IMG/VR virus record: IMGVR_UViG_3300024262_000015
Location: 1 to 64,000 of that record
Direction: 5' to 3' (one strand)
Length of the DNA stretch: 64,000 nucleotides
Source of the DNA: a virus
The notes below the pieces were generated by a model. The model made no database searches and was not told the origin of the DNA. It worked only from the letters and a program-made list of their open reading frames with translations. How positions within the stretch are numbered: the stretch's first letter is position 1; each line of letters starts with the position of its first letter. The translations under genes were made by a program, and so were the position numbers. Of the stretch, positions 4,832-31,190 are shown in pieces.

Positions 4832-5194
4832 TTGGTAAGTAGTATTATGAGTTACAAGGAAAAGCTTCGCGAATATGACCTAAAGCCTGCTGTAGTTAGG
4901 CCATTAGAAGTAGTTGTGGAAGGGAATAATTTTGAAGATGCTTTTAGAAAATTTAAAGCTATGTTTCAAAACGAAAAAGTAATCAGTGAAATTAAAAAAC
5001 GCGAGTTTTACGAAAAGCCCTCTGAGAAGAAACGGCGCAAAACCCGAGAGGCCATGGAGCGCAAATGGTTTTTAGAATTGCGTGATAAAATGATTAAGAA
5101 TGGCGAGTGGGAAAAGCGTATGAAAAAGAAAGACCAGCGCCGAAAAGAAAAGGTAGCTAAACGTCAGAACTCAAAGGATGATTATGGATTCTAA
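4832..5194 (+). CDS. rpsU: Ribosomal protein bS21 homologue with extended ends
   Basis: bS21 sits on the small ribosomal subunit near the anti-Shine-Dalgarno end of 16S rRNA and helps select mRNA starts. The core here matches the family: V.GNNFEDAFRKFK, then EIKKREFYEKPSEKKRRK and a basic helix. Bacterial bS21 is about 70 residues; this one is 120, with about 20 extra residues at the N-terminus and a Lys/Arg-rich C-terminal tail. The start is taken as TTG 4832 because GGAGG (4820-4824) lies 7 bases upstream; ATG 4847 is the alternative. Phage bS21 genes are known from some large phages and are thought to bias host ribosomes to phage mRNA. That role is inferred here. Confidence 0.88.
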   Translation: MVSSIMSYKEKLREYDLKPAVVRPLEVVVEGNNFEDAFRKFKAMFQNEKVISEIKKREFYEKPSEKKRRKTREAMERKWFLELRDKMIKNGEWEKRMKKKDQRRKEKVAKRQNSKDDYGF

Positions 5195-5861
5195 AAATAG
5201 AGGCGTTATTCCCAGTTACTATCCCAGTGGTGGAATAGAGCCCGAATATCAGCGCCTTAATGTAACACCTGCCAGAAGCATTCCTTTTAAAGGCCCCGCG
5301 CAGCAAGAAGAGATAACGCGTCGAGGTGGTGGCATTAGGGTTAATCGCCAGCCCTCCCCTCAAAAGTTCGTCCAAGCCAATGAAGAATACCAACAGCCAT
5401 CTCAAAATCGGCCGGTTGAGCCAATTCATGAATTCCATTCTGTTGGAGGAGAGGATCAGCGTGCAATTCCTATGCAACGACCTCCAGAATGGGCAGCAGA
5501 AGAGCGGCCATCATTAAGTGATGATGATTTAAAACAAATGTTAAATGATGAACAACAACCAAGATACCGAGAGGCTCCACCACCCGCCCAACCTCTCCAC
5601 ATTGGTAATGAAAATGAGATGTGGAAAGACAAGAAGGTTGGGAACAGATTAGACCAATCATCGGGTGCTGAGCTTCTTCTTAATTTAGAGCCAGGAGAAC
5701 ATTGTTTATTGGTCAAATCATCACCATTTGAACGTTCTCAAAATCTACAGTGGCTTTTAGAAGAGGGCCAAAGATTGTTGCTTAGCGGCCAATGCCAACT
5801 AGATGATCTTTCTATTTATACCAAAGTAGCTTTGGATTTTGGTTTGGTAATTAAGACATGA
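5184..5861 (+). CDS. Hypothetical Pro/Gln-rich protein (225 aa)
   Basis: The first two thirds are low in order and rich in Pro, Gln, Arg and Glu. The last 70 residues look folded (AELLLNLEPGEHCLLVKSSP followed by a helical part). ATG 5184 has AAAGG 5 bases upstream and is preferred to ATG 5178. The gene overlaps the bS21 end by 11 bases and the next gene by ATGA, so the three are probably one transcript. The function is not recognised. Confidence 0.7.
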   Translation: MDSKNRGVIPSYYPSGGIEPEYQRLNVTPARSIPFKGPAQQEEITRRGGGIRVNRQPSPQKFVQANEEYQQPSQNRPVEPIHEFHSVGGEDQRAIPMQRPPEWAAEERPSLSDDDLKQMLNDEQQPRYREAPPPAQPLHIGNENEMWKDKKVGNRLDQSSGAELLLNLEPGEHCLLVKSSPFERSQNLQWLLEEGQRLLLSGQCQLDDLSIYTKVALDFGLVIKT

Positions 5862-6148
5862 AAAGTTTAGGAAGCTTTTGCTTAAGTCAAATTATCCCTG
5901 CCAATGGAGTTGTGGCAGTCTTTGATATTTCTGAAGAAGAAGTAGAGACTCTGCCAGTTATTTGTTGGGGATTAATCATGAATCAAGACGGGTCAAAAAT
6001 CATGGGCATGGTTTTAGGGGAAGATAAAAAAAAGCTCATATCCGTTGAAGAAAGAGGAAAGTTTTTAAACTATGAACTTATGGAGTGGGGCTTAGACTTT
6101 GGTGAAGAGGGAGACGATATTGATGAAGAAGAGGGTTCTTTAAATTGA
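5858..6148 (+). CDS. Hypothetical acidic protein (96 aa)
   Basis: A small acidic protein that starts at an ATGA overlap with the gene before it and ends in a run of Asp/Glu. The N-terminal half looks like a small beta domain (SQIIPANGVVAVFDI). No motif is recognised. Tight spacing on both sides supports translational coupling in one operon. Confidence 0.65.
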   Translation: MKSLGSFCLSQIIPANGVVAVFDISEEEVETLPVICWGLIMNQDGSKIMGMVLGEDKKKLISVEERGKFLNYELMEWGLDFGEEGDDIDEEEGSLN

Positions 6149-6807
6149 AAACTCGTAGTTTAGAAGAAGTTGTTATTTCATTAGAAGGAAAAGTAAGTAA
6201 AACGCTTGCCCTATATTCTAATATGGATAATAATATTAAAGTTCTTTTAAACCAAATTAATCAAATTAATCAAACGCTTCAAGAGCCATTAACTGAAATG
6301 GAGGCTCAACAGTTTACTCAATCCCGCCCTCAAATGCCTGCCGAAAAGATCGCTCAACGTATAGAAGCTTTACCTCCAGAAGATTTTAAGAACCCTAATG
6401 CTATGGAAGGCTTTAAAGTTGGTTTTGAGCCCACTGACTTTGATGATGAGGGCAACCCCATTCTTCAGGAAGTAGCAGTACCCAAAGGCAATAGAAGGGG
6501 GGAAAGAAAGCTTGAAGGAGGGGCGCCACGAGTTGCCGTTTCTCAAAGAATAGTTTTCCCTAATGGCGACCCTCTTTTCTTAGGGGCGGTCTCTATAAAG
6601 GATTCTTCGGGAACAATATTAAGACAAACCCGTACCAATTCTCAAGGACGATGGGTAGCAGGATTAAGCCCCGGAGAATATTCAATTCAGATATCTAAAA
6701 GGGGTGGGGAAGACGGATCTCCAGAAGTAGAGCTAAAATATTCAATTAACGTTCCTGTCTCCAAAAAACCTGTAGAGTTTCCTTCTCCTCAATTGGAGGA
6801 GGGATGA
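6145..6807 (+). CDS. Coiled-coil protein with carboxypeptidase-regulatory/Ig-like domain
   Basis: The start is TTG 6145 with GAGGG 9 bases upstream, overlapping the preceding stop. Residues about 10-50 form a likely coiled coil (repeated NQINQ). Residues about 140-205 resemble a carboxypeptidase-regulatory-like or Ig-like beta sandwich (VSIKDSSGTIL...TNSQGRWVAGLSPGEYSI). Such domains are frequent in phage surface proteins and mediate weak binding. A virion role is possible, but the gene sits in the early/replication half. The function is unknown. Confidence 0.65.
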   Translation: MKTRSLEEVVISLEGKVSKTLALYSNMDNNIKVLLNQINQINQTLQEPLTEMEAQQFTQSRPQMPAEKIAQRIEALPPEDFKNPNAMEGFKVGFEPTDFDDEGNPILQEVAVPKGNRRGERKLEGGAPRVAVSQRIVFPNGDPLFLGAVSIKDSSGTILRQTRTNSQGRWVAGLSPGEYSIQISKRGGEDGSPEVELKYSINVPVSKKPVEFPSPQLEEG

Positions 6808-7166
6808 CACTTGTACTTGCATCTTATTTCGAGCCAGAAAATCATGGACCCGGAAGAAAGATAGGCGTTTCGATTAATAAGCCTGAAGAAGGATCGTGTG
6901 AATTTCGCTTCGACCCATTTGTTCCTAATGCAGATGTGTTTTGGGAATATCACAAAACAAAACAGACAGATCCTTTAGCTGGCAAAAAATTTTCTGATGC
7001 TTATAAAAAACAATTAGACGAATTTCTTGAGGTAGCTTCAAAAGAAGATCTGCCTTTTGAAGATGGCGATACTCTTTTGTCTTATGAACGTAAGGGACAT
7101 CTATCTTATAGAACCATTCTAGCCATCTATTTAGAAAAATTAGGCTATGAAGTAGAACAAAGATAG
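6804..7166 (+). CDS. Hypothetical protein (120 aa)
   Basis: It overlaps the previous gene by ATGA, with GGAGGAGGG just before the start. The protein is a single globular-looking alpha/beta domain. It begins LVLASYFEPENHGPGRKIGVSI, a pattern faintly like small uncharacterised DUF488-type proteins, but the similarity is too weak to name. No catalytic motif is seen. Confidence 0.65.
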   Translation: MTLVLASYFEPENHGPGRKIGVSINKPEEGSCEFRFDPFVPNADVFWEYHKTKQTDPLAGKKFSDAYKKQLDEFLEVASKEDLPFEDGDTLLSYERKGHLSYRTILAIYLEKLGYEVEQR

Positions 7167-7188
7167 CTATAAAACCTAATTTGTTTCT

Positions 7189-7560
7189 ATGGAAGATACA
7201 CGATTTGAAGACCCAAAATTTCTTAAATGGGCTTTTGCTGTTAAGAAACGAGATGGGTTTGTTTGCAAAATTTGTGGATTAAAAAACGTTGAATTAAACT
7301 CCCACCATTTAAATGCATGGGATACGTACGAGAGCCAACGTTATGATGTAAAAAATGGCATTTGCATTTGTGTTTATCACCACCAGCACTTTCATGATGC
7401 GTATGGGTATGGCGGAAATACAGAAGAACAGTTTGGTGAATATTATGATACCTGCAAGCTAATCCATAAGAGCGCGGCATTGCACTTTATATCAGATGAG
7501 CTAACCTCTGAGTTGGAGGTGCTCGATGGATATACCGAAGATTCAATTTCTGTGGCGTGA
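7189..7560 (+). CDS. HNH endonuclease
   Basis: A free-standing HNH nuclease of 123 residues. After VKKRDGFVCKICG (first zinc CxxC) comes LNSHHLNAW, the HH active-site strand, then NGICICVYHHQHFHD with the structural Cys and the final His residues of the beta-beta-alpha-metal fold. Such phage genes often act as homing endonucleases that cut related phages; a packaging role is a less likely alternative here. It overlaps the dUTPase by 35 bases, so it is fully integrated in the operon and not an obvious recent insert. Confidence 0.85.
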   Translation: MEDTRFEDPKFLKWAFAVKKRDGFVCKICGLKNVELNSHHLNAWDTYESQRYDVKNGICICVYHHQHFHDAYGYGGNTEEQFGEYYDTCKLIHKSAALHFISDELTSELEVLDGYTEDSISVA

Positions 7561-7999
7561 AGATTTAGACTCCAGTTTTTTACCAACCAAAAGCGAACCA
7601 CAAGCTGCTGGATGGGATGTAAAAGCCGCAGAAGGAGTTTGGTTAAAAGAATATGATACTCAATTAATAGATATAGGAATCCGCTCTATCTTACCAGAAG
7701 GATGGTATTTAGAGCTACGACCCCGCTCTAGTACATTTTATAAGAAACATATTAATTGTTTATATGGAATCATTGACTCCTCTTATCGACAGTCTATTAA
7801 GCTTGCTTGCCAATACATTCCTCCATCAGCTTTTTCTCGCAGCACTTATGTGGAAAGAGGAGAACGTATTGCTCAGCTAATTCCAAGAAGAATAGAAAGC
7901 TTTGAGATTTCTGCAATAAGCAGTGAGGCATTTGATTCTTACTGTGAAAACGAAGAAAATGAGCGCAAAGGCGGCTTTGGCAGTTCGGGAGATCGGTGA
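7526..7999 (+). CDS. dut: dUTP diphosphatase (trimeric dUTPase)
   Basis: It hydrolyses dUTP to dUMP and pyrophosphate, which keeps uracil out of phage DNA and feeds dTMP synthesis. All five family motifs are present in order: AAGWDV (27-32), RPRSS (65-69), GIIDSSYR (81-88, normally GxIDxxYRG), GERIAQLI (112-119) and RKGGFGSSG (147-155). The length of 157 is typical. ATG 7526 has GGAGG (7514-7518) 7 bases upstream, which fixes the start inside the HNH gene. The TGA stop overlaps the next GTG start. Confidence 0.95.
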   Translation: MDIPKIQFLWREDLDSSFLPTKSEPQAAGWDVKAAEGVWLKEYDTQLIDIGIRSILPEGWYLELRPRSSTFYKKHINCLYGIIDSSYRQSIKLACQYIPPSAFSRSTYVERGERIAQLIPRRIESFEISAISSEAFDSYCENEENERKGGFGSSGDR

Positions 8000-8319
8000 T
8001 AAACTTGGGCATGGGCTGGGGAATGGATCTCTTAACTCGTAAGCAATTCTTTGATAACCGTCATGTTTTTGAGGATGAAGACATTGATCTCCTTAAAGAA
8101 CGTTGGCCAGAAATTTCTTTTAATAATATTCCTTTAGCTTGGGTTTTCCAGCTAGATGAGTTTCTTTGTAAAACCAAATATTCTTCATCCATAACTGAAA
8201 TAAGACAAGAGTTTGGGGAGGTTATTGTTCTTGGTGAACTCAATACTAAATTAAAAACGCGCATCCACGAATTAGAGGCCCAGACTTATTTAGTAGATTG
8301 GGATTTACATATGCAATAA
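7996..8319 (+). CDS. Hypothetical protein (107 aa)
   Basis: It starts at GTG 7996 inside the dUTPase stop, with GGGAG 4 bases upstream; in-frame ATG codons at 8011 and 8023 are alternatives. The product is a small alpha-rich protein with no recognised motif. Coupling to dut suggests the same transcript, but no function follows from this. Confidence 0.6.
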   Translation: MINLGMGWGMDLLTRKQFFDNRHVFEDEDIDLLKERWPEISFNNIPLAWVFQLDEFLCKTKYSSSITEIRQEFGEVIVLGELNTKLKTRIHELEAQTYLVDWDLHMQ

Positions 8320-8332
8320 TTAACATAAAGAT

Positions 8333-9337: not shown

Positions 9338-9348
9338 GAAACTGATAT

Positions 9349-9364
9349 AGACCTAAAGAGGTCT
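9349..9364 (+). promoter_or_regulatory. Short hairpin covering the ribosome binding site of the next gene
   Basis: AGACCT (9349-9354) and AGGTCT (9359-9364) form a 6-bp stem with loop AAAG. The Shine-Dalgarno AGAGG (9357-9361) lies in the loop and 3' arm, and the ATG follows 2 bases later. It could damp initiation, but a 6-bp hairpin can also arise by chance. Confidence 0.25.
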
Positions 9365-9365
9365 C

Positions 9366-10600: not shown

Positions 10601-10756
10601 ATGAGCAGAAAAGATAATAACTTTGAACAATTGCACCTCTACTTGGAAGAGAGCTACCTTTTAATCCCTCCAACTGAAGAAAAAAAGCGAAACGAAGAGG
10701 CAGAAAAGGATAGTGGCATAACCATCATTGAAGTTTGGAGCGACCCAGAAGAATGA
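10601..10756 (+). CDS. Small hypothetical protein (51 aa) before the deformylase
   Basis: ATG 10601 follows TGAGGAG (10586-10592) and opens a 51-codon frame (MSRKDNNFEQ...VWSDPEE) that ends in an ATGA overlap with the deformylase start. The product is strongly charged, with a Lys/Glu centre. The clear start signal and coupling support a real gene; the function is unknown. The 63 bases between 10538 and 10600 contain no convincing -10/-35 pair. Confidence 0.6.
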   Translation: MSRKDNNFEQLHLYLEESYLLIPPTEEKKRNEEAEKDSGITIIEVWSDPEE

Positions 10757-11310
10757 TAATAACTGACGAAGCCCTCCTTCGGGTTGAGAGCGTTCCAGTT
10801 CTCCCCGAGGAGATAGGGCCTTTAAGGGATCAGCTAGAGCGCGAACTTATTCGTTCTGCCGCTAGAGGTCATGAAGGGGTTGGTTTGGCTGCCGTTCAAA
10901 TTGGCATTCCTCAACAGATGGCTATTGTAAGAACAAAAGACTATTCTGTTGATCTAATTAATTGCGAAATAGTTAAAGGATATGACAAAGCTATTTTTGA
11001 AAATGAAGGTTGTTTAAGTTTTCCTGGCCGATTTGAAAGAACTTGGAGATATCAGGAAATTCACATTAATAACAATGCTGAGCCTAAAAACAAAGAGTTT
11101 GTTGCAAGAGGATTTTTAGCTGTAATTTGTCAACATGAATTAGACCATCTTGATGGGCGCCTTTTGCCTGATGTTGCTATCCCTTCTTTAAATTTAAACC
11201 CGGAAAATTTAAATAAGACAGTTTTTAAAAGAGAAAAAAGAAGACCTAATGAACTCTGTTTTTGTGGATCAAGTGTTAAATTCAAGCGCTGTTGTGGTAT
11301 AAAAAGATAA
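10753..11310 (+). CDS. def: Peptide deformylase fused to a C-terminal SEC-C zinc motif
   Basis: The enzyme removes the formyl group from the first Met of new proteins as they leave the ribosome. The three deformylase motifs are intact: GVGLAAVQIG (42-51), EGCLS (85-89, metal Cys87) and HELDH (128-132, metal His residues and catalytic Glu). Unusually, residues 164-182 form a SEC-C motif (RPNELCFCGSSVKFKRCCG, Cys169, 171, 180, 181), the small zinc knuckle at the end of SecA and other proteins. SEC-C of SecA binds SecB and is reported to bind ribosomes. ATG 10753 (ATGA overlap) is preferred over an upstream in-frame TTG at 10735. Phage deformylases are known; this fusion is uncommon as far as I recall. 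Confidence 0.92.
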   Translation: MIITDEALLRVESVPVLPEEIGPLRDQLERELIRSAARGHEGVGLAAVQIGIPQQMAIVRTKDYSVDLINCEIVKGYDKAIFENEGCLSFPGRFERTWRYQEIHINNNAEPKNKEFVARGFLAVICQHELDHLDGRLLPDVAIPSLNLNPENLNKTVFKREKRRPNELCFCGSSVKFKRCCGIKR

Positions 11311-11314: not shown

Positions 11315-11617
11315 ATGAGAAGTAAAGTTACTGTGTATAAGTTTGGAGCAACTTGGTGTGGTCCATGTAAGGTTTTGGACACTAAGTTTTATAAGGTTTC
11401 CCAAGAGTTTCCCGAAGTTACTGTAATTGCTCTTGATGTAGAGCAGGATGCAAAACTGGCAAAACAACATAAGATAAGGTCAGTACCTACGGTTATATTC
11501 TTAGATGAAGGAAAAGAGGTAGAGAGGCTAGTAGGAGCGGTTCTTACTGGTCCTTTACGTAAGGCCTTCAAAACCCTCCAAGAAAGGCTAGATAATGTCA
11601 CGACCGACGACCAGTAA
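11315..11617 (+). CDS. trxA: Thioredoxin
   Basis: A small thioredoxin-fold protein of 100 residues with the active site WCGPC (Cys15 and Cys18) and cis-Pro58 in SVPT. It reduces disulfides and can feed electrons to a ribonucleotide reductase; in T7 the host thioredoxin is a polymerase clamp. No ribonucleotide reductase is in the window. It lies 4 bases after the deformylase and overlaps the next gene by 23 bases. Confidence 0.93.
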   Translation: MRSKVTVYKFGATWCGPCKVLDTKFYKVSQEFPEVTVIALDVEQDAKLAKQHKIRSVPTVIFLDEGKEVERLVGAVLTGPLRKAFKTLQERLDNVTTDDQ

Positions 11618-11885
11618 AAGCGAACCAAAAGAGCTTTGGGGAGCAATTAAAAACCAGAGTGTAAATATGTTTGGCCTTCCCGGTCAGACCTTAGAGGCTC
11701 ACATTACCGACCATAAGATTGTTGGAGATAAGCTTTATTTGCATCTCAAATCTACTGCTGCTTTGCGGGCTGTAGAAGAATCGGTTGCTAAAGTTCCACC
11801 ACCCGCTGGACAAAAATATGACGTACTACCTTTGGGCAGTGGCAACAATGAGGTTATGATAAGGCTCATTGAAGAAGAAGAATAA
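11595..11885 (+). CDS. Hypothetical protein (96 aa)
   Basis: It begins inside trxA at ATG 11595, with AGAAAGG about 10 bases upstream. The product has a short basic N-terminus and a small alpha/beta domain (TLEAHITDHKIVGDKLYLHL). It is not recognised. The frame is kept because it continues 268 bases beyond trxA in the only open plus frame. Confidence 0.6.
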   Translation: MSRPTTSKSEPKELWGAIKNQSVNMFGLPGQTLEAHITDHKIVGDKLYLHLKSTAALRAVEESVAKVPPPAGQKYDVLPLGSGNNEVMIRLIEEEE

Positions 11886-18405: not shown

Positions 18406-19389
18406 GTGGCAGTAATAAGTTTAAGTATCATAGATGGCGATTATGAAATCGTTGCCGGAACACCAGCGTTTGTAAGCTTTACAACCAATGTTCCTGCTAC
18501 AGTTTTTTATACTTTAGATGGTACAGAGCCTACAACTTCCTCATTAGTAGCAGTGGGAGATGTTTTCTTACCAACTACCGGCCTTTTAGTTCATTTAAAG
18601 GTTTTTGCTACTAATGGCACGGATACTTCTCCAATTATCGAAAAATGCTACGGCACTACAATAGCTTTTAACAGAAGACCACATGATACAGTTAAGGGTT
18701 TAAATACTGGCTTTCCCCCATCAGCACCCTATCCTTTTGGTTCCTTTAGCCAACCAAGGGGCGTTTATGGCAATACTGGGGGCCTAACAATCAAAAGCGC
18801 CAATGTAGAAGGGGTTCCGGATGGTTTTGATGCCGATGGAAACCCTGGAGCCTTTACAAATAAGCCATTTACGATTGAAAATTATGAAATAATCTTCTCA
18901 GAAACCAATCAAGCCGGAGAATATGGACGAGGTATAGGAAATTTGCCCTCTGAAACCTTCGTTATTCCTCCTCGCGTCAACCCTCCCGAAGAGTCAGAAA
19001 CCAACTCCCCATTTTTTAATCCTAAAGCTTTGGTTATTTACCAAGATGGAACAAAGCCATCTTTTGACCCGGCTATAGAGCCTATGATGCGCCACTCTTT
19101 TAGCCTTATGAACCCAGAGCGAGTAAGAGATGGAAACTATTTTTTTACTACTGGATTGGATGGAAATACGCCCACTGCTAATACTACCAAATCAATGTAC
19201 AATCCAAAAGATAATACAATGATTTATTATTATAGGGATAGAGATACTAATAGATGGATAATATCAAAAACTAAATTTGTATCTAAAGATCCGGGTTTGT
19301 TTAATTTAGGTGCTGTGGTATTTGGCAGGTTCAAAGATGCGCGCTATGTTTATCCTTGGGTAACTTACCTCTACAACAAGTTAGCATAA
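18406..19389 (+). CDS. Probable virion protein with chitobiase-like beta domain
   Basis: The start is GTG 18406, touching the previous stop, with AAGGAG (18397-18402) upstream. Residues about 1-85 look like a chitobiase/beta-hexosaminidase C-terminal type Ig-like domain (PATVFYTLDGTEPTTSS). The rest is Gly/Pro/Asn-rich and beta-like. Such domains decorate tails or capsids and can bind sugars. Its place among replication genes is odd for a structural protein. Virion location is inferred. Confidence 0.65.
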   Translation: MAVISLSIIDGDYEIVAGTPAFVSFTTNVPATVFYTLDGTEPTTSSLVAVGDVFLPTTGLLVHLKVFATNGTDTSPIIEKCYGTTIAFNRRPHDTVKGLNTGFPPSAPYPFGSFSQPRGVYGNTGGLTIKSANVEGVPDGFDADGNPGAFTNKPFTIENYEIIFSETNQAGEYGRGIGNLPSETFVIPPRVNPPEESETNSPFFNPKALVIYQDGTKPSFDPAIEPMMRHSFSLMNPERVRDGNYFFTTGLDGNTPTANTTKSMYNPKDNTMIYYYRDRDTNRWIISKTKFVSKDPGLFNLGAVVFGRFKDARYVYPWVTYLYNKLA

Positions 19390-20210
19390 TGCACGCACAT
19401 ATAATCCAAAAAAAAGCCGAGTCTAAAGCTGATCTGCCATTATCGGTTAGCAAAGTAAAAACGTTTGAAGATTGTAAGGCCAAGTATAAGTATAATTATA
19501 TTGAAAAGTTACCAAGGAAAACATGGGACTTCCATGTTTTTGGACAATTTGTTCATGCGGTTTTAGAAGATTATCATAAAGAAGTCATGGAAGGCACAAC
19601 GGAATGGCCTCATGAAATAATGAGTAGGGCTTTTAATTACAGACGAAAGCGGTATAAGTCCTTAAAGCCTCCCCAAATTAAAGAAGGTTGGGAGATAGTT
19701 AATAATTATCTCAAACAAATAAGCAGCCACCACCCCAATGTAATGGCTGTAGAGCGTCACTTTTACATCGATGTTGACCAGTCGGTTTTAGTTAATGGTT
19801 TTATTGATCGCATTGATTTAGACGATGATGGCATCTTGCATGTTGCGGACTATAAAACAACCAAAAATAAAAAGTATTTAAAAGATTTTTTCCAGCTAAT
19901 CACTTATGCATGGCTTTTAATGTTAGAAGATCCATCTATCGAAATGGTTCGCGGGTCTTTTATCTTATTACGTCATAATTCAGAATGGCTAACTAGAGAA
20001 ATTAGGAGGGAGGATGTAGAGATTGTTTCAGAAAAATACCTGAAACGTGCAGCCGAGATAAGAACAGAAAAACTTTGGCGTACATCTCCTTCTCCTTTGT
20101 GTAACTTTTGTGATTTTCTTAGCAATTGCAAAGATGGTCGTCAATTTGTTAGCCGCTTAGGCAAAAATCGGAGCAATCCTACGCCACTATATGGAAAGCA
20201 ATCCTGGTGA
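19389..20210 (+). CDS. RecB/Cas4-family PD-(D/E)XK nuclease with Fe-S cluster cysteines
   Basis: The nuclease core has the RecB-family order: GQFVHAVLEDYH with His56, GFIDRID with Asp140, VADYKTTK (Asp154, Lys156) and the QLITY motif (Gln169, Tyr173). Cys29 at the N-terminus and Cys238, Cys241 and Cys247 at the C-terminus match the four-cysteine 4Fe-4S cage of AddB and Cas4. Length is 273. There is no CRISPR array or other cas gene here, so a recombination or DNA-processing role with SbcCD is more likely than spacer acquisition. Start is ATG 19389 at a TAATG overlap. Confidence 0.9.
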   Translation: MHAHIIQKKAESKADLPLSVSKVKTFEDCKAKYKYNYIEKLPRKTWDFHVFGQFVHAVLEDYHKEVMEGTTEWPHEIMSRAFNYRRKRYKSLKPPQIKEGWEIVNNYLKQISSHHPNVMAVERHFYIDVDQSVLVNGFIDRIDLDDDGILHVADYKTTKNKKYLKDFFQLITYAWLLMLEDPSIEMVRGSFILLRHNSEWLTREIRREDVEIVSEKYLKRAAEIRTEKLWRTSPSPLCNFCDFLSNCKDGRQFVSRLGKNRSNPTPLYGKQSW

Positions 20211-20213: not shown

Positions 20214-20405
20214 ATGACAAAAAAAACAGAGAAACGTGTCTTATTAGACGCTATTGAATTTTGGCAAGGCTTTTTAGAAGGCATCAACTGGAGTTTGGCA
20301 AACCCTTCTGAAACTGCTAAAGAAAGAATACTAGATGTAGAGGTATTAATTGATGAATACCGGTCTCGTCTAAAACAAACTAGTTCACGGAGGAGAAAGA
20401 AATGA
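20214..20405 (+). CDS. Small hypothetical protein (63 aa)
   Basis: A short helical protein with a basic tail (SSRRRKK) between the RecB-like nuclease and trigger factor. Its end overlaps the trigger factor ATG by 4 bases, and its last codons contain that gene's AGGAG. The function is unknown; the basic tail might contact RNA or DNA. Confidence 0.6.
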   Translation: MTKKTEKRVLLDAIEFWQGFLEGINWSLANPSETAKERILDVEVLIDEYRSRLKQTSSRRRKK

Positions 20406-21655
20406 GAGTTGAAACGCAAGATTTAGGAGATTCATCGTTTTTGTTTCTCTATGAGGCAGACCCCGAGGTAGTAGAAGAAAAACTTGAAACTGCTATCGAC
20501 CAATTTAAAGACGTAGATATCCCTGGGTTCCGAAAAGGTAAGGCCACACCAAACGCAATTCGAGTTCATAAGAAAAAAGAAATTGATCAATTGGTAAAAC
20601 AAGAGCTTGCGGTTCAGGCGTATGATGAGATTCTGTATGACACAGGAATGAAGGTTGTAGGATCTCCACACTTTACAGAAGTAAAATTAACCGGTAAAAA
20701 GTTTAGTTGTAAAATGGCTGTTGTCAAACGGCCCGAATTTGAGTTAGTTGATTTAAAAGAGCTAGTCATCCCTCCTCTAGAAATACCTGAACAAGATTTG
20801 GAAAATACTTTAGATGTTCTCTGTCATCGCCATGGCTCTCTTAATCCGTTTGGGGAAGAAGATGTGGTAGGAGAAGGAGACAAATTAACTTTAGATATAT
20901 CTTATACGATTGACGAGGAAGAAACAGTCCTAGATTCACAGCCCTATGATGTTGGCTCCCAAGGCTATCCGGGTTTAGATGATGAGATAATCGGAATGAA
21001 GATTAATGAAGAAAAGGAATATACATTTAATAATGGCGGAAAGGACTATGCTTTTAAAGTTAAAGTTAAAATGGGATTAAAAAATGTCCCGGCTGATTTA
21101 GATGATGAATTAGCTAAGAAATATAAATTAGAAAATGTTGAACAATTAATTGGGGAAGTAGAAAAATCTCAAACAGCTTATAACAATAAAAAGCAGGCCA
21201 TGTATCAACGCACTGAAACCGCTCAATGGCTAGTTAACCATCATGAGTTTGAAGTTCCTGCTTCCCTTATCCTTGAGGAAACCAAAGTCTTTGCTGCTCG
21301 AAACGGGTTAGAGATAGCAAGCCTGGGAGAAGAAGAAATGAAGACCGTTGCATCAGAAGCGTGCAACTCTGTAAAATTAGCGCTAGTCTTAGAGGCAGTC
21401 AGAGAAGATCATCCGGAGAGCTTCTTGTCCGATCAAGAGGCGATCCAAGGATTAGCGGGAAGAGCAAAAGAAATGGGTCAAGATCCCCAGAAAACTATTA
21501 CTCTTTTGCAACAACGAGGGTTTCTAGCCTCGTCCCTTCAATCCGTTAAGGATGAATATACTCTTCATTGGATAACAACATTTACAAATAACGAGGTAAG
21601 AAATGTCCAAGTGCCCCGAGAACTTCCCCCCGAAGTGGTTCAAGAAACTAAGTGA
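20402..21655 (+). CDS. tig: Trigger factor (ribosome-associated chaperone)
   Basis: Trigger factor sits at the ribosome exit tunnel and shields new chains. The N-terminal ribosome-binding signature is present as GFRKGKATP (42-50; family GFRxGxxP). An FKBP-like prolyl isomerase domain follows (about 150-240: GEGDKLTLDISYTI...GLDDEIIGMKINEEKEYTF), then a helical chaperone C-domain. The length of 417 is close to bacterial trigger factors (about 430), so all three domains are kept. The start ATG 20402 has AGGAG 7 bases upstream. A near-full-length trigger factor in a phage is rare. Together with bS21 and deformylase it suggests control of phage protein maturation. Confidence 0.9.
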   Translation: MRVETQDLGDSSFLFLYEADPEVVEEKLETAIDQFKDVDIPGFRKGKATPNAIRVHKKKEIDQLVKQELAVQAYDEILYDTGMKVVGSPHFTEVKLTGKKFSCKMAVVKRPEFELVDLKELVIPPLEIPEQDLENTLDVLCHRHGSLNPFGEEDVVGEGDKLTLDISYTIDEEETVLDSQPYDVGSQGYPGLDDEIIGMKINEEKEYTFNNGGKDYAFKVKVKMGLKNVPADLDDELAKKYKLENVEQLIGEVEKSQTAYNNKKQAMYQRTETAQWLVNHHEFEVPASLILEETKVFAARNGLEIASLGEEEMKTVASEACNSVKLALVLEAVREDHPESFLSDQEAIQGLAGRAKEMGQDPQKTITLLQQRGFLASSLQSVKDEYTLHWITTFTNNEVRNVQVPRELPPEVVQETK

Positions 21656-22168: not shown

Positions 22169-22535
22169 GATATTAGAATTAGTTAATAACCTTCCTCGTG
22201 CAGGTCAGGTAGATTCTTTATCTGAATATTGTAGGAAACAAACCGAAACACCTGTTTATAAACAGCTTAATATGGTAGTTTCTAATTCTTCTTTTGGTCT
22301 TAAACATCTTCGTGAAGTAATTACTTATCTAATAGATTTAGATGAGTCTGTAGCTTTAACTAATAATACCGACCAAAAATTGGTTTTATGCCTTTTATTG
22401 CTTGCTGATTACGATAAACCCACTTTAAGCTGGGCCACGCAGGCGCTTCATGGGACCAATCATTTTTGGGCCTCTTGTGTTTCCAAATCCCTTGTTCTGA
22501 GTCAATATGTAAAGGAGGAGGCGCCCAAAGTATGA
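22161..22535 (+). CDS. Hypothetical helical protein (124 aa)
   Basis: It is coupled to the polymerase gene by an ATGA overlap, and the polymerase's AAAGGAGGAG lies in its last codons. The product is all helical and Leu-rich. It might be a polymerase-associated factor because of the coupling; nothing in the sequence proves this. Confidence 0.6.
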   Translation: MDKILELVNNLPRAGQVDSLSEYCRKQTETPVYKQLNMVVSNSSFGLKHLREVITYLIDLDESVALTNNTDQKLVLCLLLLADYDKPTLSWATQALHGTNHFWASCVSKSLVLSQYVKEEAPKV

Positions 22536-25500
22536 GCTTTGTATCGCTACATAGCCGGACCTTTTTTTCTATCCTTCGAGCCCTATCATCACCGGAAGCC
22601 CTTTTTCAAAAGGCTAAAGAGTTAAATCAATCAGCTATAGCTATTACAGATTATTGTTCGGCTGCAGGAATGGCCGATGCTCTTCAGGAAAGTAAAAAGA
22701 CTGGAGTAAAGCTAATACCAGGGGTTGAGCTAAATTTCGTTCCTGTTATTTCCGAGGAGCAATCAAAAGATTATAGAACTCTGGTTTTTCTGGCTAAGAA
22801 TGAACAGGGATACAAAAATCTTTTATGTTTAATTAAAAAAGGTTTTGATAATCATGTTAGTGCGTTTAAGAAAGCTGTTCCTCAAACTACTTGGGAACAC
22901 TTAGAAGAATTTAAAGAGGGTTTGATTTGTTTAAGTGGAGATGGGCAAGGATATATATCTCAGCTTTTGATGGCACGAGAAACTGATCTAGCAACAACTG
23001 CAGCCCTCAAATTAAAATCTATTTTTAAAGATGATTTTTATATTGAGCTTAACCCCTCTTCTCTAAGAAGACTGGACAACCCTTGGTCTGGACCAATTGA
23101 CCAAAACTTTATCAATCGCAAGCTAAAAACTCTAGCTATTGAAAATGATCTTCAATGGGTTATTACCCCTACAACATTTTATACTACTCCAGAAGAGTTT
23201 GAGCTTCATGATGTTCTGTTAGCTATTAATTGTGGACACCCTAAGTTTGTTCAATCTAGATTAAAATTTAATACAAACGATTTCTACCTTCAATCTGAAG
23301 AACAAACTAAAAACTTTTTCCTCCGTCATAAATCCTTTTGGGGAGAAAGCTTCATTCAAAAAGGGATAGCCAACACTCAGATTATTGCTGATCGGTGTGG
23401 TTCGGCTGAGTATGTAGACCCCAAATATAGCAATCCATCAGGTAAAGAACTTCCAGTCTTTCCTGTAGAAAAGCAAAAAGACTATGAGCTTTTTGCACAT
23501 TGGAGAAAAAAGCTAAAGCCTCCAGGAAAATTAGATACCGATTACTTAAAATTTAAATGTATTAGAAAACTAATTTCTTTGGGCATTAGAGATCTTACAC
23601 CTTATAAAAAAAGATTGGAAGAAGAACTTGAAGTATTAGATTATAAAGGGTTTTGTTCTTACATGCTAATTGTAAGTGACTTCATGAGAGAGGCCAATGA
23701 TCGGGGCGTAAAAACTGGGCCAGGCCGAGGGTCAGTAGGCGGATCTTTGATTGGTTACTTGTCCGGCCTTCATAGGTTGGACCCGCTAAAATATGGATTA
23801 ATCTTTGAGCGATTCATTAATAAGTACAAAGAAGCCTACCCGGATGCGGATCAAGATATTGCTCCTTCAGGACGCGGGTACATTAAAGCTTACCTAGAAG
23901 ATCTTTATGGGGCTAATAATGTTGCTAACGTTAGTAATATTAATACGATTACTCCCAAAGTTTACGCTAGGGACATTTCTCGTTCTTGCCAATTTGGGGG
24001 AGATCGAGGGGCTGCCGTATATATAGGAGACCAAATTGCTAGCTCTATCCCTGATTCTGCCCATACTTTTGAACAAGCCTTTATTGAATCATTCTTATTT
24101 AGGGAGTTTTGTGAAAAGTATCCAGAGCTTGTAGAATACAAAGATTTATGTGGCCTTCCTAGAGCATGGGGCACACACGCTGGTGGATTTATTATAGGAG
24201 CCAGATCTCTAGTAGGATTGGTTCCAGTACGAAGAGATAATGATGGCAACTTAGTTTTGGAATATGATAAAGTCCGCGCTGAAGCTAATGGGTTAGTTAA
24301 AATAGATATTTTAGGGCTTACTACTCTAGACATCATTTCTCATACCCATGAATTAATCAAAGAGCAAGGCAAGCCCTTACCTCCCTCTCCGTTGCCCCTT
24401 AATGATCCTGAAGCCTATAAACTAATTAGTAAAGGCAAAACCGAATGCGTGTTCCAATTAAATGGGGCAGCGGTTCATTTATGTAAAAAGATTAAACCAA
24501 AAAACATTGAAGAAATTTCAATTATTAATACTTTAGTTCGTCCAGCAGCAAAAGATATTCAAGACGATTTCATTGCAACCAAGGATGGAAAAAAGAAAGT
24601 AGAACTTTTACATCCTCTTTTGGAACGAGCCTTTAAAGAGACTTACGGATTTGGCCTTTATGAAGAGTGTTTAATGGTCATTGCAGAAGATGTAGCAGGG
24701 TGGGATCTTAATGATGCTGATGCACTTAGGAAGCTCACGAAAGAAAAAGGAAAGAACCCTGAAAAGGTTAAAAAGTGGAAAGAAGATTTTATTGAGGGAG
24801 CGGTTAAAAATAAAAATCTTTCTCAAAAAGACGGGGAATTTATTTGGGACGAGGTAGTAGCCAAATTCGGAGCCTATTCATTTAATCATAGCCACTCTAT
24901 TGCCTACTCACTTACCTCCTATGAAACCGCTTATCTAAAAGCTCATTACTTTCTAGAGTTTTTGGTTTCCAATCTCAAGTTTAACCTTGCTTCAGCCAGC
25001 CCAAAAGCTGAAGGAACGGTTTTAGCGATTAAGAAAGAGCTACGACTTGGGGGGATAAACATTTTGCCTCCTGATATTAACTCTTCAGAAAATGGCTATA
25101 AAATTATTGATGACAAAACAATCCTTATGGGTCTGGACTCAATAAAGTTCGTTGGAAAACCAGCCCAGGAACAAATTCTTTTGCATCGACCATTCTCCTC
25201 ATTAGAAGATCTTTTAATGAGAACGGAAGGTCGTAAGCTTAGGATGCCCGCCATTCAAGCTCTTGCAGCTAGTGGAGCGCTACGATCTTTTAATCAAACA
25301 CGAAAAGAATTGTTTTTATATAGTGGAGATTTTAAAAAGAAACTTGCTTCTTATGACAAGAGAACGCTTCTTAACCAAACAGGATTTCATTATCCATGGC
25401 CTGAGACAGAAGAATGGACCGAAGTAGAACAGTATGGGTTGGAAAAACATTTTCTAGGAGAAGGTCTTTCTGCCAATGCCAAACGCCTTTATCCAGGCTT

Positions 25501-26098
25501 CTTTGAAGGGCCAGGAATGGAGGAAGGAGACGAGCTAGAGTTTTCTCTTTTGGGCAATGTGTTTCCTTACAAAAAGCGTCATTCGGTTCTTAAAGCAGAT
25601 AGAAAAGCTAATAGTCATAAAATAGATAGCTCAACTAATCCACCAGGCCTTAAGGGAATTCTTACTCAGTTTTACAGCTTCCGAGTTAAAAATCCAGATA
25701 GCTCTATATTTGGAGAAGAAATGGCCAGAGGTATTTTAGAGGATATTTGGGGCAACGAACTTATATTACTAGTCTTCCCTGAAGCTTTAGGCCGAGCGAG
25801 AGAGACTATTAGAAAACTGTCTAGAGGAGAGTCGTCACTAGATTCAGATCGTTTGGCTCTTTTAGTAGAAGGCACCTTTCAACATGAGGGCTCAACAGGC
25901 CAAATATTTATTTTAGAAGATATAGTAGACTTTAAAGAAGAACCACAAAAACCATCCGATAAAGACCTGAAAGCCCAAAAAGTAATTATGAAGATTGCAC
26001 CACCTAGGAAAAGAGTTAAACAATATACCAAAGAACAATTAAAAGAGCAACTGGAATTAGAAATGGTTGAACAAGGTTTCTCATTAGAAAAGTCTTAA
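22532..26098 (+). CDS. dnaE: DNA polymerase III alpha subunit-like replicative polymerase (DnaE type)
   Basis: This C-family polymerase (1188 residues) probably copies the phage genome. The core motifs are clear: GPGRGSVGGSLIGYLSG, PDADQD with catalytic Asp438 and Asp440, THAGGFIIG, KIDILGL with Asp592, and SFNHSHSIAYSLTSYETAYLKAHY. A HhH-like tail follows. The N-terminal PHP domain is degenerate: the usual LHTHSEYS reads LHSRTFFS and the usual TDHG reads TDYC, so PHP proofreading is probably lost. No exonuclease motif is seen, so proofreading would need another protein. ATG 22532 with AAAGGAGGAG upstream is the start. Confidence 0.95.
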   Translation: MSFVSLHSRTFFSILRALSSPEALFQKAKELNQSAIAITDYCSAAGMADALQESKKTGVKLIPGVELNFVPVISEEQSKDYRTLVFLAKNEQGYKNLLCLIKKGFDNHVSAFKKAVPQTTWEHLEEFKEGLICLSGDGQGYISQLLMARETDLATTAALKLKSIFKDDFYIELNPSSLRRLDNPWSGPIDQNFINRKLKTLAIENDLQWVITPTTFYTTPEEFELHDVLLAINCGHPKFVQSRLKFNTNDFYLQSEEQTKNFFLRHKSFWGESFIQKGIANTQIIADRCGSAEYVDPKYSNPSGKELPVFPVEKQKDYELFAHWRKKLKPPGKLDTDYLKFKCIRKLISLGIRDLTPYKKRLEEELEVLDYKGFCSYMLIVSDFMREANDRGVKTGPGRGSVGGSLIGYLSGLHRLDPLKYGLIFERFINKYKEAYPDADQDIAPSGRGYIKAYLEDLYGANNVANVSNINTITPKVYARDISRSCQFGGDRGAAVYIGDQIASSIPDSAHTFEQAFIESFLFREFCEKYPELVEYKDLCGLPRAWGTHAGGFIIGARSLVGLVPVRRDNDGNLVLEYDKVRAEANGLVKIDILGLTTLDIISHTHELIKEQGKPLPPSPLPLNDPEAYKLISKGKTECVFQLNGAAVHLCKKIKPKNIEEISIINTLVRPAAKDIQDDFIATKDGKKKVELLHPLLERAFKETYGFGLYEECLMVIAEDVAGWDLNDADALRKLTKEKGKNPEKVKKWKEDFIEGAVKNKNLSQKDGEFIWDEVVAKFGAYSFNHSHSIAYSLTSYETAYLKAHYFLEFLVSNLKFNLASASPKAEGTVLAIKKELRLGGINILPPDINSSENGYKIIDDKTILMGLDSIKFVGKPAQEQILLHRPFSSLEDLLMRTEGRKLRMPAIQALAASGALRSFNQTRKELFLYSGDFKKKLASYDKRTLLNQTGFHYPWPETEEWTEVEQYGLEKHFLGEGLSANAKRLYPGFFEGPGMEEGDELEFSLLGNVFPYKKRHSVLKADRKANSHKIDSSTNPPGLKGILTQFYSFRVKNPDSSIFGEEMARGILEDIWGNELILLVFPEALGRARETIRKLSRGESSLDSDRLALLVEGTFQHEGSTGQIFILEDIVDFKEEPQKPSDKDLKAQKVIMKIAPPRKRVKQYTKEQLKEQLELEMVEQGFSLEKS

Positions 26099-27225: not shown

Positions 27226-27226
27226 T

Positions 27227-27682: not shown

Positions 27683-28605
27683 TTGATGTTAGTGCTTTAG
27701 TAGCTTCTGTTAAAGGAAGATACAGCAAAAAAGAACAAGGTCTGGCCACAGCTATTACCTTAGGAAATGAGCTTTATCTTCCTACCCATGATGATGCTTT
27801 TGTCTTGGCTAGTGGTTTTCCTTTTTGGCAAGAACTAACTGGCCTTAAAGGTATCCCGTTTGGTAGGATAGTTCAGTTTTCTGGGCGTCCTGATTCCGGA
27901 AAGAGCACTATGGCCTGCCTTTTTATGAAGGCAGCACAGGAACAAGGAGTGCTTGTTGTTCTGTGGGATGCCGAAAAGAAGTTTGATTCTAAACGCCTTG
28001 CAAAGATGGGCGGTAAACCAGATGAGATTTTGGTATGCCGCTCTAAGCTTATTCAAGAGGGTATGAAACAATTTACCTTTGCTATTCAAGAAGCTAAAAA
28101 AATAGATCCTAAAGTAAAGATTTTATTTGTTTGGGACTCTGTAGCTGCCAGTCTTAATGCTTTAGAGTCTGAAGAAAAAGAAGACTGGTCTAATCAGCCT
28201 GGTGTTCAAGCTAAAGAAGTTAATCGAGTTTGTAAAAGAATAAACCAATTAATGGAAAAGTATCGAGATCCTGATACGGGAGAAGATACGATGTGTGCCA
28301 TTGCCGTTAATCAAGTTTATAAGAACATCGGAAGTGTAGGGGTTGTAGAAAAGGGTGGAGAGGGGCTATTCTATGCTTGCAGTCTTATTCTTCAACTAAC
28401 CCGCAAAAAAGATTTGGTGCGTCAGCGAAAAGGCAAATCCATGAAGTACGGAATTTTGTCTAAAGCTAAGGTTAAAAAGAACCATTTGTTTGACGCAGAC
28501 GAATGCGTGGCTACACTAGATATAGTTGTATCCGCCAAAACAATAGAGTTAGGCGAAGAAGTTAAACAACGTGCCGACATAACCGAAGAGGAAGATAATG
28601 AATAA
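27679..28605 (+). CDS. uvsX: RecA/UvsX-like recombinase
   Basis: It forms filaments on single-stranded DNA and pairs homologous strands, which allows recombination-dependent replication with gp46/47. Residues 69-77 are Walker A (GRPDSGKST), Glu99 in LWDAEKK is the likely catalytic Glu, and Asp153 in ILFVWDSVA is Walker B. The L2-like GGEGLFYACSLILQL follows, and the C-terminus is acidic. Length 308 is shorter than RecA (about 350), as in many phage recombinases. The last bases overlap the next gene. Confidence 0.9.
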   Translation: MIDVSALVASVKGRYSKKEQGLATAITLGNELYLPTHDDAFVLASGFPFWQELTGLKGIPFGRIVQFSGRPDSGKSTMACLFMKAAQEQGVLVVLWDAEKKFDSKRLAKMGGKPDEILVCRSKLIQEGMKQFTFAIQEAKKIDPKVKILFVWDSVAASLNALESEEKEDWSNQPGVQAKEVNRVCKRINQLMEKYRDPDTGEDTMCAIAVNQVYKNIGSVGVVEKGGEGLFYACSLILQLTRKKDLVRQRKGKSMKYGILSKAKVKKNHLFDADECVATLDIVVSAKTIELGEEVKQRADITEEEDNE

Positions 28606-28915
28606 CCCAGCAAAAGAAGCAGCCAAAGCTGTTTATCTAATAAAAACAGAAGACCCAACAGAAAAAAAGGGAGTGGTTTATTACCGCTCTCAAGACGTAG
28701 AAAATCGAGGGACTTTTATTTCCCTTCGAGGCTCATTAATCGATGAGAAGGCTGTAGCTGATGTATTAGCCAATCCCCTAAATGAAATTGGGGAAGAGAT
28801 TAATGTTGAGCTACCTTTAAGCAGAGTTATTTCAATTCGAAATGCTACTTACTCAGGTACAAAGACAACAAAGCGCAAAGCAATCTTGCGCTCTGAAGGT
28901 GGACAAATCCTTTAA
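28598..28915 (+). CDS. Hypothetical protein between uvsX and ssb (105 aa)
   Basis: A small, mostly beta protein (GVVYYRSQDVENRGTFISL...INVELPLSRVISIRNA) with a basic C-terminus. It is placed between recombinase and probable SSB in one transcript, so a role in strand exchange is conceivable, but no motif is known to me. Confidence 0.6.
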   Translation: MNNPAKEAAKAVYLIKTEDPTEKKGVVYYRSQDVENRGTFISLRGSLIDEKAVADVLANPLNEIGEEINVELPLSRVISIRNATYSGTKTTKRKAILRSEGGQIL

Positions 28916-28928
28916 GGAGAAAAAGACA

Positions 28929-29612
28929 ATGGTGAAATTTGGATTATCAAGCTGGGGCGGCAATGGGCAGGCTAAAAAACAAAACACTGGGGAACGAATT
29001 CCGTTTCTCAAAACTAAGAATGGTAATAACCTCATTAGAATTGTAACTGGCCCTTATGTTCAACAACAAGCCTGGGTAGTAAACGCCAATACGGGTAAAA
29101 AAATGCCTATTCGTAGTGCTGTTAATGACTGCCCTCTCAGGGAAGCGGGCATTGAAATTGACGAAAAAAGTCTTGTTGGGGTTCTAATGCGTCCTTCAAT
29201 TAATGATCCAGAAGGAAAGTCTTCTCTGGGAATCCTGACCCTCTCTCCTGGTCTCAAACGTCAAATCGATGACCTTGTAGAAGAAGAAGGCTACGAGGAT
29301 ATCACGTCCTATGATATCAACATTAAACGCAAAGACGGCGAAGTTCCGGCAAACTTTTATAAGGTTCTTCCACGGCCTGTGAAAGCTCTTTCGGATGAAG
29401 ATGAAACCATGCTTGAAGGAAGACGAGAAGATCTCCTGAACACCCTGGAGCGCATCACTACGCCTCTTTCTGTTGATGAGGTACGAGAGCAGATGATCAA
29501 GGCTGGAATTAAGCCTGGCTCCTCTCAGTCTAAGCCCAAGGAAGAAACTTCTTTCATTCCTCCTAAGGCCGATTCAGATGATGATGATATATATAATTTT
29601 GAACCCGCGTGA
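28929..29612 (+). CDS. ssb: Probable single-stranded DNA-binding protein
   Basis: ATG 28929 with AAGGAG (28913-28918) upstream gives 227 residues. Three signs support an SSB. It lies directly after the recombinase. The N-terminal part (NNLIRIVTGPYVQQQAWVV...CPLRE) resembles the OB-type core of phage SSBs. A Pro/Lys-rich linker ends in a very acidic tip (DSDDDDIYNFEPA), as in T4 gp32 and bacterial SSB, where the tip recruits partners. It is the last gene before a strong terminator. The assignment rests on context and tail. Confidence 0.7.
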   Translation: MVKFGLSSWGGNGQAKKQNTGERIPFLKTKNGNNLIRIVTGPYVQQQAWVVNANTGKKMPIRSAVNDCPLREAGIEIDEKSLVGVLMRPSINDPEGKSSLGILTLSPGLKRQIDDLVEEEGYEDITSYDINIKRKDGEVPANFYKVLPRPVKALSDEDETMLEGRREDLLNTLERITTPLSVDEVREQMIKAGIKPGSSQSKPKEETSFIPPKADSDDDDIYNFEPA

Positions 29613-29661
29613 TCCTTGTGCAGTAGACTGTGCCTTAACTTAGTTGTAATGGGTGGGGGAG

Positions 29662-29694
29662 TCCCGCCTGGGTTAAACCAGGCGGGATTTTTTT
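29662..29694 (+). terminator. Rho-independent terminator after ssb
   Basis: TCCCGCCTGG (29662-29671) pairs perfectly with CCAGGCGGGA (29678-29687) around loop GTTAAA, followed by seven T (29688-29694). It should end the replication transcript, 13 bases before the ruvC start. It is the clearest terminator in the window. Confidence 0.92.
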
Positions 29695-29707
29695 GTAGGC
29701 AGTTTCC

Positions 29708-30295
29708 ATGAAAATACTTGGCCTTGATGTGAGTTCTACAACCATTGGAGTGGCTTTATTAGACTGCAATTCTAAAAAAGCTACGCTGGTTGTGGGATCC
29801 TATTACAAGCCCCCAAAAGGAAAAAGAACAATTTATGAACGCCTATCTGAAACCAAAGCATCAGTAAAAAAATGGGTAGACGGGTATCAACCAGACTTTA
29901 TAGTTATTGAAGATATCTTATTATATATGGGAGGAAAAAAGGGCAGAAGAAAGTCTAATGCCCAAACAATTACCACCCTAGCTATTTGGAATAGGATGGT
30001 AGGCCTGACCTCTTTTGAGGCTTCTGGGAAGAATCCCTATTTGTTATCAGTGGAAGAAATACGCAAAATCCTTAAGCTCGATAAACACATACCTAAAAAA
30101 GAAGAGATGCCTGAATTGGTAGCAAAACATCTAGGAATGGACTTTCCTTGGGTTAAGTATTATAATATAAAAAAAAAGCTAGCTAATCGTAAAGAAAACT
30201 TTGATATAGCTGACGCTGTAGCGGTGGCTTTAGCTTTTTATAAAAAAGGGATGAATGATGACGGGTTCGCAGGCTTTCCAGGTTTTAGGAATTGA
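29708..30295 (+). CDS. ruvC: RuvC-like Holliday junction resolvase
   Basis: An RNase H-fold endonuclease that cuts four-way junctions before packaging. The acidic residues fit RuvC: Asp7 in GLDVSSTTIG, Glu68 in VIEDI, and Asp166/Asp169 in FDIADAVAVALAF. It is longer (195) than bacterial RuvC (about 170) because of an insert near 75-85. It starts just after the terminator and overlaps dnaJ by 41 bases. No promoter is visible in the 13-base gap, so readthrough or the unusual leader may drive it. Confidence 0.88.
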   Translation: MKILGLDVSSTTIGVALLDCNSKKATLVVGSYYKPPKGKRTIYERLSETKASVKKWVDGYQPDFIVIEDILLYMGGKKGRRKSNAQTITTLAIWNRMVGLTSFEASGKNPYLLSVEEIRKILKLDKHIPKKEEMPELVAKHLGMDFPWVKYYNIKKKLANRKENFDIADAVAVALAFYKKGMNDDGFAGFPGFRN

Positions 30296-31190
30296 TTCCT
30301 CTGCCTCTCCAGAAGAAATTAAAAAAGCCTTCAGAAAGAAGGCTGCTATATTACATCCTGATAGAAATAAGGCAGAAAATGCCGAAGATCAATTTAAAGA
30401 ATTAAATGAAGCTTATAGAGTGGCCTCGGCCCCTCCTGAAGCCTTTGGGATGAAGGACTTTTTTCAAAACGAAGGAGACTTTGCTTATAACGTTGAAGAT
30501 GTTTTTCGACAGTTTTTTGATCCTCCACAAGGCAATGATACGAAGCGTGTACGGTTTTGGAGCCAATCTCAAAGGCCCACCAAGATAGGTCTCACGCTTG
30601 AAGAGGCCGCAAACGGATGCAGAAAATCCGTTTCACTTCCTGGTACCCAATGTGAAAAGTGCCATGGTTCCGGACAAGAAGCCAGACACCAAGAGTGTCA
30701 GAGATGTGGAGGAAAAGGAAAGCAAGGAGAGCATTATTGCGCTACGTGTTCAGGACAAGGCCAAGTAGCTTATAGGGCTCGCTGTAGTGAATGCGTAAAC
30801 CAAAAGGGGTCTACTGTGGAAATAAACTTTCCCTCAGGAATTAGTCAGGGTTGGAAAGTACAAATTAATGGGCAGGTGGTTGTAGTCTACTTGTTACCCC
30901 ACTCTGAATTAAAAACTGACGGAGTAAATATTTTCTCTGTTTGTGAACTTACTTTACTGGAAGCATTAAAAGGTTGCACTAAAGAAGTTAAAACAGTCAA
31001 GGGAAAAAAGAAACTAAAGATCCCAGAGAGAAGAAAACAAGGAGATGATGTTGTTGCTTTTGAGCTAGGGTTAACTAAACAAGGCAAACATATCTTTAAG
31101 ATGGATATAGTTTATCCAGAAGATTTATCTAAAGTTATAGAGGCTTTAGAGAGTGATAGTTTAAACAAAGAGGAAAAAGATGGCATTTAG
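30255..31190 (+). CDS. dnaJ: DnaJ-type co-chaperone
   Basis: DnaJ delivers clients to DnaK (Hsp70) and stimulates its ATPase. The J domain spans residues about 5-60 with HPD at 34-36. After a short linker, four CxxC zinc repeats follow (CEKCHGSG, CQRCGGKG, CATCSGQG, CSECVNQKG), then a client-binding C-domain. Length 311 is shorter than bacterial DnaJ (about 375) and the Gly/Phe region is reduced. No dnaK is in the window, so it presumably works with the host DnaK for phage protein folding. Start is ATG 30255 inside ruvC. Confidence 0.93.
   Translation: MMTGSQAFQVLGIDSSASPEEIKKAFRKKAAILHPDRNKAENAEDQFKELNEAYRVASAPPEAFGMKDFFQNEGDFAYNVEDVFRQFFDPPQGNDTKRVRFWSQSQRPTKIGLTLEEAANGCRKSVSLPGTQCEKCHGSGQEARHQECQRCGGKGKQGEHYCATCSGQGQVAYRARCSECVNQKGSTVEINFPSGISQGWKVQINGQVVVVYLLPHSELKTDGVNIFSVCELTLLEALKGCTKEVKTVKGKKKLKIPERRKQGDDVVAFELGLTKQGKHIFKMDIVYPEDLSKVIEALESDSLNKEEKDGI

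Follow-up and report, generated by a model that had tools for sequence, protein, structure and literature searches.

The first 64,000 bases of the 139,564-base virus record IMGVR_UViG_3300024262_000015 (this whole stretch is referred to as the window) carry, within a block of replication genes, reading frames for the ribosomal protein bS21, a peptide deformylase (PDF) with a C-terminal SEC-C zinc motif, a trigger factor (TF) and a DnaJ protein, together with a thioredoxin-fold (Trx-like) protein. These assignments had been put forward in an initial annotation of the DNA, and we found all of the frames intact at the positions collected in Table 1, with Pfam gathering cut-offs passed. The NCBIfam names agreed for each family; PDF, TF and DnaJ scored under the strict equivalog level, as is expected for divergent proteins. 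By reading, a myovirus-like structural gene set was recognized in the remainder of the record.

Table 1. Genes of the translation and folding proteins and their conserved neighbors (positions in the window).
Feature	Position	Strand	Evidence and remarks
bS21, N-terminal and basic C-terminal extensions	4832..5194	+	PF01165 E=1.5e-17; TIGR00030 E=4e-16
Peptide deformylase, C-terminal SEC-C zinc motif, tail CFCGSSVKFKRCC	10735..11310	+	PF01327 E=2.7e-25; PF02810 E=7e-7
Trigger factor: ribosome-binding, PPIase-like and C-terminal chaperone domains	20402..21655	+	Trigger_N E=5e-18; Trigger_C E=8e-7; GGAGG upstream
DnaJ, type I-like: J domain with HPD, G-rich linker, cysteine repeats, C-terminal domain	30255..31190	+	J domain E=1e-16; DnaJ_C E=3e-15
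Thioredoxin-fold protein, adjoins PDF; CGPC in window	11315..11617	+	PF00085 E=6e-18; alignment
96-aa protein	11595..11885	+	No Pfam match; homologues in 19 relatives, same place, directly after Trx-like gene
Type I DNA topoisomerase (TopA)	2649..4796	+	Conserved left neighbor of bS21; TIGR01051 E=1.5e-174; synteny
PD-(D/E)XK nuclease, Cas4/RecB-like	19356..20210	+	Conserved left neighbor of TF; PF12705 E=2.5e-30
DNA polymerase III alpha subunit (PolIII alpha)	22466..26098	+	Conserved right neighbor of TF; Pfam; start codon uncertain

Relatives of the phage were gathered through terminase similarity, which is independent of the four genes, with one extra record obtained through its PDF, and profile searches for TF, bS21, PDF and DnaJ were run on 31 large records; a second set of 26 large records was partly picked by TF. 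The clade consists of uncultured phages with records up to 480.8 kb long. Twenty relatives have contigs covering the region and are termed spanning here (the window is counted in addition); 18 of these 20 exceed 100 kb, and two members of the set, G017 and G019, are near duplicates, so that 20 records do not represent 20 independent events. Independent occurrence of the genes in relatives, which the initial annotation had named as grounds for refutation, was not seen: bS21, PDF, TF and DnaJ were all present in 20/20 spanning relatives as well as in the window, that is, in every relative long enough, in fixed positions and across deep divergence. Over all 31 records TF was detected in 22, bS21 in 20, PDF in 21 and DnaJ in 26, and a position check explained missing genes by a contig ending before the expected place (G006, G009, G010, G011 and G029-G033). 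G005 and G007, whose terminases are only distantly related (33% and 24% identity), have none of the four genes; for G005 about 35 kb of upstream sequence was available. In the second set bS21 was present in 26/26 records. In G031 the layout differs, as just about 3 kb separate DnaJ and the terminase.

Within the reach of each stretch, and where the gene was detected, gene order was identical in the 20 compared regions, running from TopA through bS21, PDF, the Trx-like protein, the 96-aa protein, SbcD, SbcC, a 327-aa protein and the PD-(D/E)XK nuclease to TF, and from there through small proteins, PolIII alpha, RecA, RuvC, DnaJ and primase to a sigma-like factor. When the window TF alone was used as query over viral contigs no match was obtained; an alignment of the TF family recovered 60 viral TF loci, with the nuclease upstream of TF in 59/60 and PolIII alpha downstream in 60/60. 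Pairwise distances of the four proteins were correlated with those of PolIII alpha (bS21, r=0.89; PDF, r=0.89; TF, r=0.97; DnaJ, r=0.91). Since these distances track PolIII alpha, the order is fixed and the phage PDFs form one clade, the four genes, as judged by these comparisons, date back to the ancestor of the clade and were passed down vertically along with the replication genes; they do not represent cargo picked up by accident.

The TF is the new element relative to known phage translation genes. It is full-length, with the profile covering residues 14-418 of E. coli TF, and it matched TIGR00115 with E=8e-47 and 160 bits, below the 180-bit equivalog cut-off. Compared with the E. coli protein (PDB 1w26, 2vrh), it has the same domains in the same order and the same docking loop GFRKGK, here at residues 42-47, but the two are only about 22% identical and the gene studied here is phage-encoded, beside PolIII alpha. 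When 38 phage TFs, which share 27-36% identity with the window TF, were aligned, conservation over 408 alignment windows was highest at residues 39-48, where the docking loop lies, and G42 and R44 were invariant; two apparent misses of the loop motif, in G012 and G022, still hold the G, the R and the last K. The TF domain bearing this loop binds uL23 (PMC8185961). The predicted TF model (pLDDT 89.5) found trigger factors as its best matches in the PDB, including TF on a translating ribosome (TM 0.61), and showed FKBP-like strands at about 146-229 and a helical C-terminus. The peptidyl-prolyl isomerase (PPIase) active site is uncertain because the window TF gave no match to the Pfam FKBP domain.

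The initial annotation had suggested that the complete set of four is not known from any described phage, and the searches for TF turned up nothing to the contrary. Among 50,697 phage records no genuine phage TF gene was found, apart from probable contamination; a profile search of nine named jumbo and other phages with DnaJ, PDF or bS21 found none, and no TF-like structure among the viral structures of BFVD matched with E <0.001. The candidates in named phage records were rejected: the Acinetobacter ‘phage’ record that we opened is bacterial chromosomal sequence (tig-clpP-clpX with a TonB receptor alongside), its sister record matches the same bacterial TF gene, and the other 15 matching records, unannotated and mostly short contigs that were not individually opened, were discounted as probably bacterial contaminants. 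In work on Southern Ocean viruses TF was looked for and none was reported (PMC8407431), and we found no earlier report of a phage TF in the open literature, with subscription papers and preprints lying outside that search; the one open-literature jumbo phage text naming trigger factor concerns DNA base modification. Because PHROG 26774, a family of unknown function, matches the window TF, a TF-like protein may already be present, unrecognized, within the PHROGs.

The PDF probably starts at ATG 10753, since the PDFs of relatives begin with MIIT. The window protein contains the catalytic motifs GVGLAAVQ, EGCLS and HELDH, and the motifs GxGLxxxQ, EGCLS and HExxH are kept among relatives. Its score of 95.4 bits lies below the TIGR00079 equivalog cut-off of 103.95, whereas the Pfam cut-off is met, as befits a divergent member of the family; its predicted model matches PDF structures. 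The PDF of Synechococcus phage S-SSM7 (PDB 3uwa/3uwb) has the same fold, but the solved chain, of which only the structure was compared, has about 148 residues vs 191 here with SEC-C. The window tail CFCGSSVKFKRCC fits the zinc motif CxCx8CC (or CxCx8HC), and a SEC-C was present in 18/20 phage PDFs. Across 19 aligned PDFs the first three cysteines and two lysines of SEC-C are invariant, and the linker preceding it is the least conserved stretch of the protein. In SecA, the metal-binding domain that corresponds to SEC-C attaches to 70S ribosomes close to uL23 (PMC6620043). In a tree with the 79 nearest cellular PDFs, none of which has a SEC-C-type tail, the phage PDFs formed a single clade apart from them, with a long stem and 100/100 support; the tree gave no host assignment, as the closest cellular sequences come from a wide range of phyla and none of them branches with the phage PDFs. 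The PDF-SEC-C combination is not confined to these phages, because LR745206, an unrelated huge phage of 635 kb, carries a PDF with the SEC-C tail CPCGSGKKYKKCC (L356:2986-3534); comparison of the proteins indicates that this is apparently an independent fusion.

The bS21 scored well over curated cut-offs (Pfam, 63.5 bits vs 27; TIGR00030, 58.5 vs 28.95), and its sequence matches the bS21 chains of solved ribosomes. Translation probably begins at TTG 4832 rather than at ATG 4847, because a GGAGG lies at 4820-4824, 7 nt upstream. An alignment showed that the bS21 core is flanked by clade-specific N- and C-terminal extensions. Over this core it is homologous to the bS21 of Pelagibacter phage HTVC008M, which was incorporated into E. 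coli 70S ribosomes (PMC6375957); HTVC008M belongs to another phage lineage, however, and has no TF in its genome. Shine-Dalgarno (SD) 5-mers precede 28% of the phage genes vs 4% of control stretches. Blocking of the anti-Shine-Dalgarno sequence by bS21, as in Bacteroidia, was considered and set aside, as these phages use SD motifs. No tRNA or tmRNA genes were detected in the record of the window or in the retrieved blocks of its relatives, and an Rfam scan of the record gave no match at gathering scores.

The HPD motif of DnaJ was kept in 21/21 proteins. The window DnaJ has three CxxCxGxG repeats and one altered CxxC, and its zinc domain falls under the Pfam cut-off while the J and C domains lie above it. 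A DnaJ is also annotated in Agrobacterium phage Atu_ph07. No HSP70 was found in 26 large records of the clade, and the phage DnaJ must therefore work with host DnaK.

The thioredoxin-fold gene had initially been listed alongside the four genes. It is present in the window with a CGPC motif, but in most relatives it should not be counted into the set as a redox enzyme, since CxxC was lost in 14/19 homologues counting the window; the motif is retained by the window, G003, G004, G012 and G020 alone. Redox activity is thus, on the alignment, not a feature of the clade, and retention of the gene despite the loss of CxxC suggests a non-redox role. Another protein of the block, the 327-aa protein (18406-19389), has a chitobiase C-terminal-like domain (PF13290) and lies within the replication block in 20/20 relatives, adjoining the nuclease and TF.

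We consider it probable that these phages carry their own copy of the machinery that takes a protein from initiation to folding, as ancestral core genes of a large myovirus-like clade. The phage bS21 would be built into the 30S platform and serve initiation, the deformylase would be held at the exit region via SEC-C and strip formyl groups, TF would dock at the tunnel exit and shield emerging chains, and DnaJ would pass unfolded proteins to host DnaK. In this way the capacity for initiation, deformylation and folding would be kept high and independent of the host while hundreds of phage proteins are made; on the simplest reading, a phage of several hundred kb would keep its own supply of factors during host gene shut-down. 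Action of the proteins at the ribosome or on the nascent chain is likely, because the docking features, namely the TF loop and the SEC-C of PDF, are conserved, and we infer that the proteins bind to ribosomes or become part of them, that they act jointly and that the phage benefits. A stronger form of this proposal, which we regard as possible but doubtful, would have phage-dedicated ribosomes in which a co-evolved bS21, the SEC-C-tethered PDF and TF, a complete set kept since the ancestor of the lineage, displace host factors and DnaJ diverts host DnaK, so that phage proteins would run initiation, N-terminal processing and folding alike.

Several observations weigh against the proposed role. 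The four genes are scattered across 26 kb among replication genes, all other core genes of the block co-inherit with them to an equal degree, and each of the four is linked to the others no more than to TopA, SbcCD or PolIII. Since neighboring core genes co-inherit equally, co-inheritance alone is no proof of joint function. The initial annotation had grouped the four genes as one kit; they are indeed always together, and the docking motifs support action at the ribosome, but their linkage is no tighter than that to replication genes. In addition, two relatives, G003 and G004, have a PDF without SEC-C, and the HTVC008M bS21 in E. coli ribosomes cut in vitro translation to about 5% (PMC6375957), on which analogy the bS21 described here may be an inhibitor rather than a helper.

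The equal co-inheritance of every core gene of the block and the separation of the four genes are also what would be expected if each had been fixed separately in the clade ancestor as an independent auxiliary gene and kept with the others by vertical descent of the replication block, and other huge phages hold subsets, e.g., bS21, PDF-SEC-C and DnaJ without TF. We regard this as possible but doubtful, since four proteins acting on successive steps, with 0 lost in 20 spanning records, go beyond loosely useful cargo. The main rival reading places TF and DnaJ among the chaperones of replication or assembly; in this view DnaJ with DnaK would remodel the replisome and TF would fold replication or capsid proteins after their release, bS21 and PDF being unrelated passengers. 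In phage lambda the replisome is remodeled by DnaJ with host DnaK; as in lambda, there is no phage HSP70 here, and in the checked relatives DnaJ is flanked by RuvC and primase, and TF immediately precedes PolIII alpha. Nevertheless, the ribosome-docking loop is the strongest constraint on TF and would not be needed by a free chaperone, and PDF bears its own module of the ribosome-targeting type, so that we judge this role unlikely. Conversion of ribosomes for selectivity, the strong form of what the initial annotation inferred, in which the tailed bS21 would shift start-site choice and PDF-SEC-C with TF at the exit would favor phage messages and chains over those of the host, is the least probable of the alternatives, for although bS21 has clade-specific extensions, selectivity has been proposed for phage bS21 (PMC7162821, PMC9723584) and a foreign phage bS21 strongly altered E. 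coli ribosome activity (PMC6375957), the phage genes have ordinary Shine-Dalgarno motifs, so that no distinct signal is evident, and nothing in the sequence discriminates host from phage chains.

That bS21 and deformylase occur in phages, as stated in the initial annotation, is established for huge phages (PMC7162821, PMC9723584). As here, bS21 and PDF occur together in very large uncultured phages, and redirection of host translation was put forward as their role there (Al-Shayeb et al., 2020, PMC7162821). Among these LR745206 has bS21 and DnaJ in addition to its SEC-C-tailed PDF, but, unlike in the present clade, the bS21, PDF and DnaJ genes lie at widely separated positions (about 39, 297 and 461 kb) and TF is absent, as it is from the five genomes of LR-series huge phages that were searched. 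The named huge-phage clades showed no close terminase relationship to this clade, and a comparison of the terminase with the 50,697 phage records gave a best match of about 25% identity, with no named phage record in the clade. The bS21-encoding Bacteroidetes phages (Chen et al., 2022, PMC9723584) likewise have a conserved bS21 in large-myovirus clades, and folding chaperones are mentioned for them; their bS21 is transcribed with late structural genes, whereas here bS21 lies within the replication block and SD signals are used, and the main text of that study makes no mention of TF, PDF or DnaJ.

Discussion of how phages take over translation has so far dealt with initiation and tRNAs, and the clade described here keeps genes for later stages, namely deformylation, a ribosome-bound chaperone and handover to DnaK. 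If the proteins do sit on the ribosomes of infected cells, specialization of ribosomes during infection would become directly testable with four defined proteins. Divergent phage TFs with a near-fixed docking loop also provide a natural series for what TF needs for ribosome binding, and the occurrence of PDF-SEC-C in an unrelated huge phage as well points to phages equipping deformylase with a tether for the exit site.

Outside the window, a capsid-like gene, recognized by reading at about bases 75154-78898 of the record (L002:11154-14898), appears to be interrupted by two insertions that leave it in three or more pieces. Both insertions encode a LAGLIDADG_2 endonuclease (E=1e-23 and 5e-38), and both end in a group I intron-like structure (RF00028, E=1e-5 and 3e-10, below the gathering score). 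Further along, a class-V aminotransferase or cysteine desulfurase-like protein (PF00266; bases 84903-85976, L003) lies beside a patatin-like fragment recognized by reading (bases 84337-84906).

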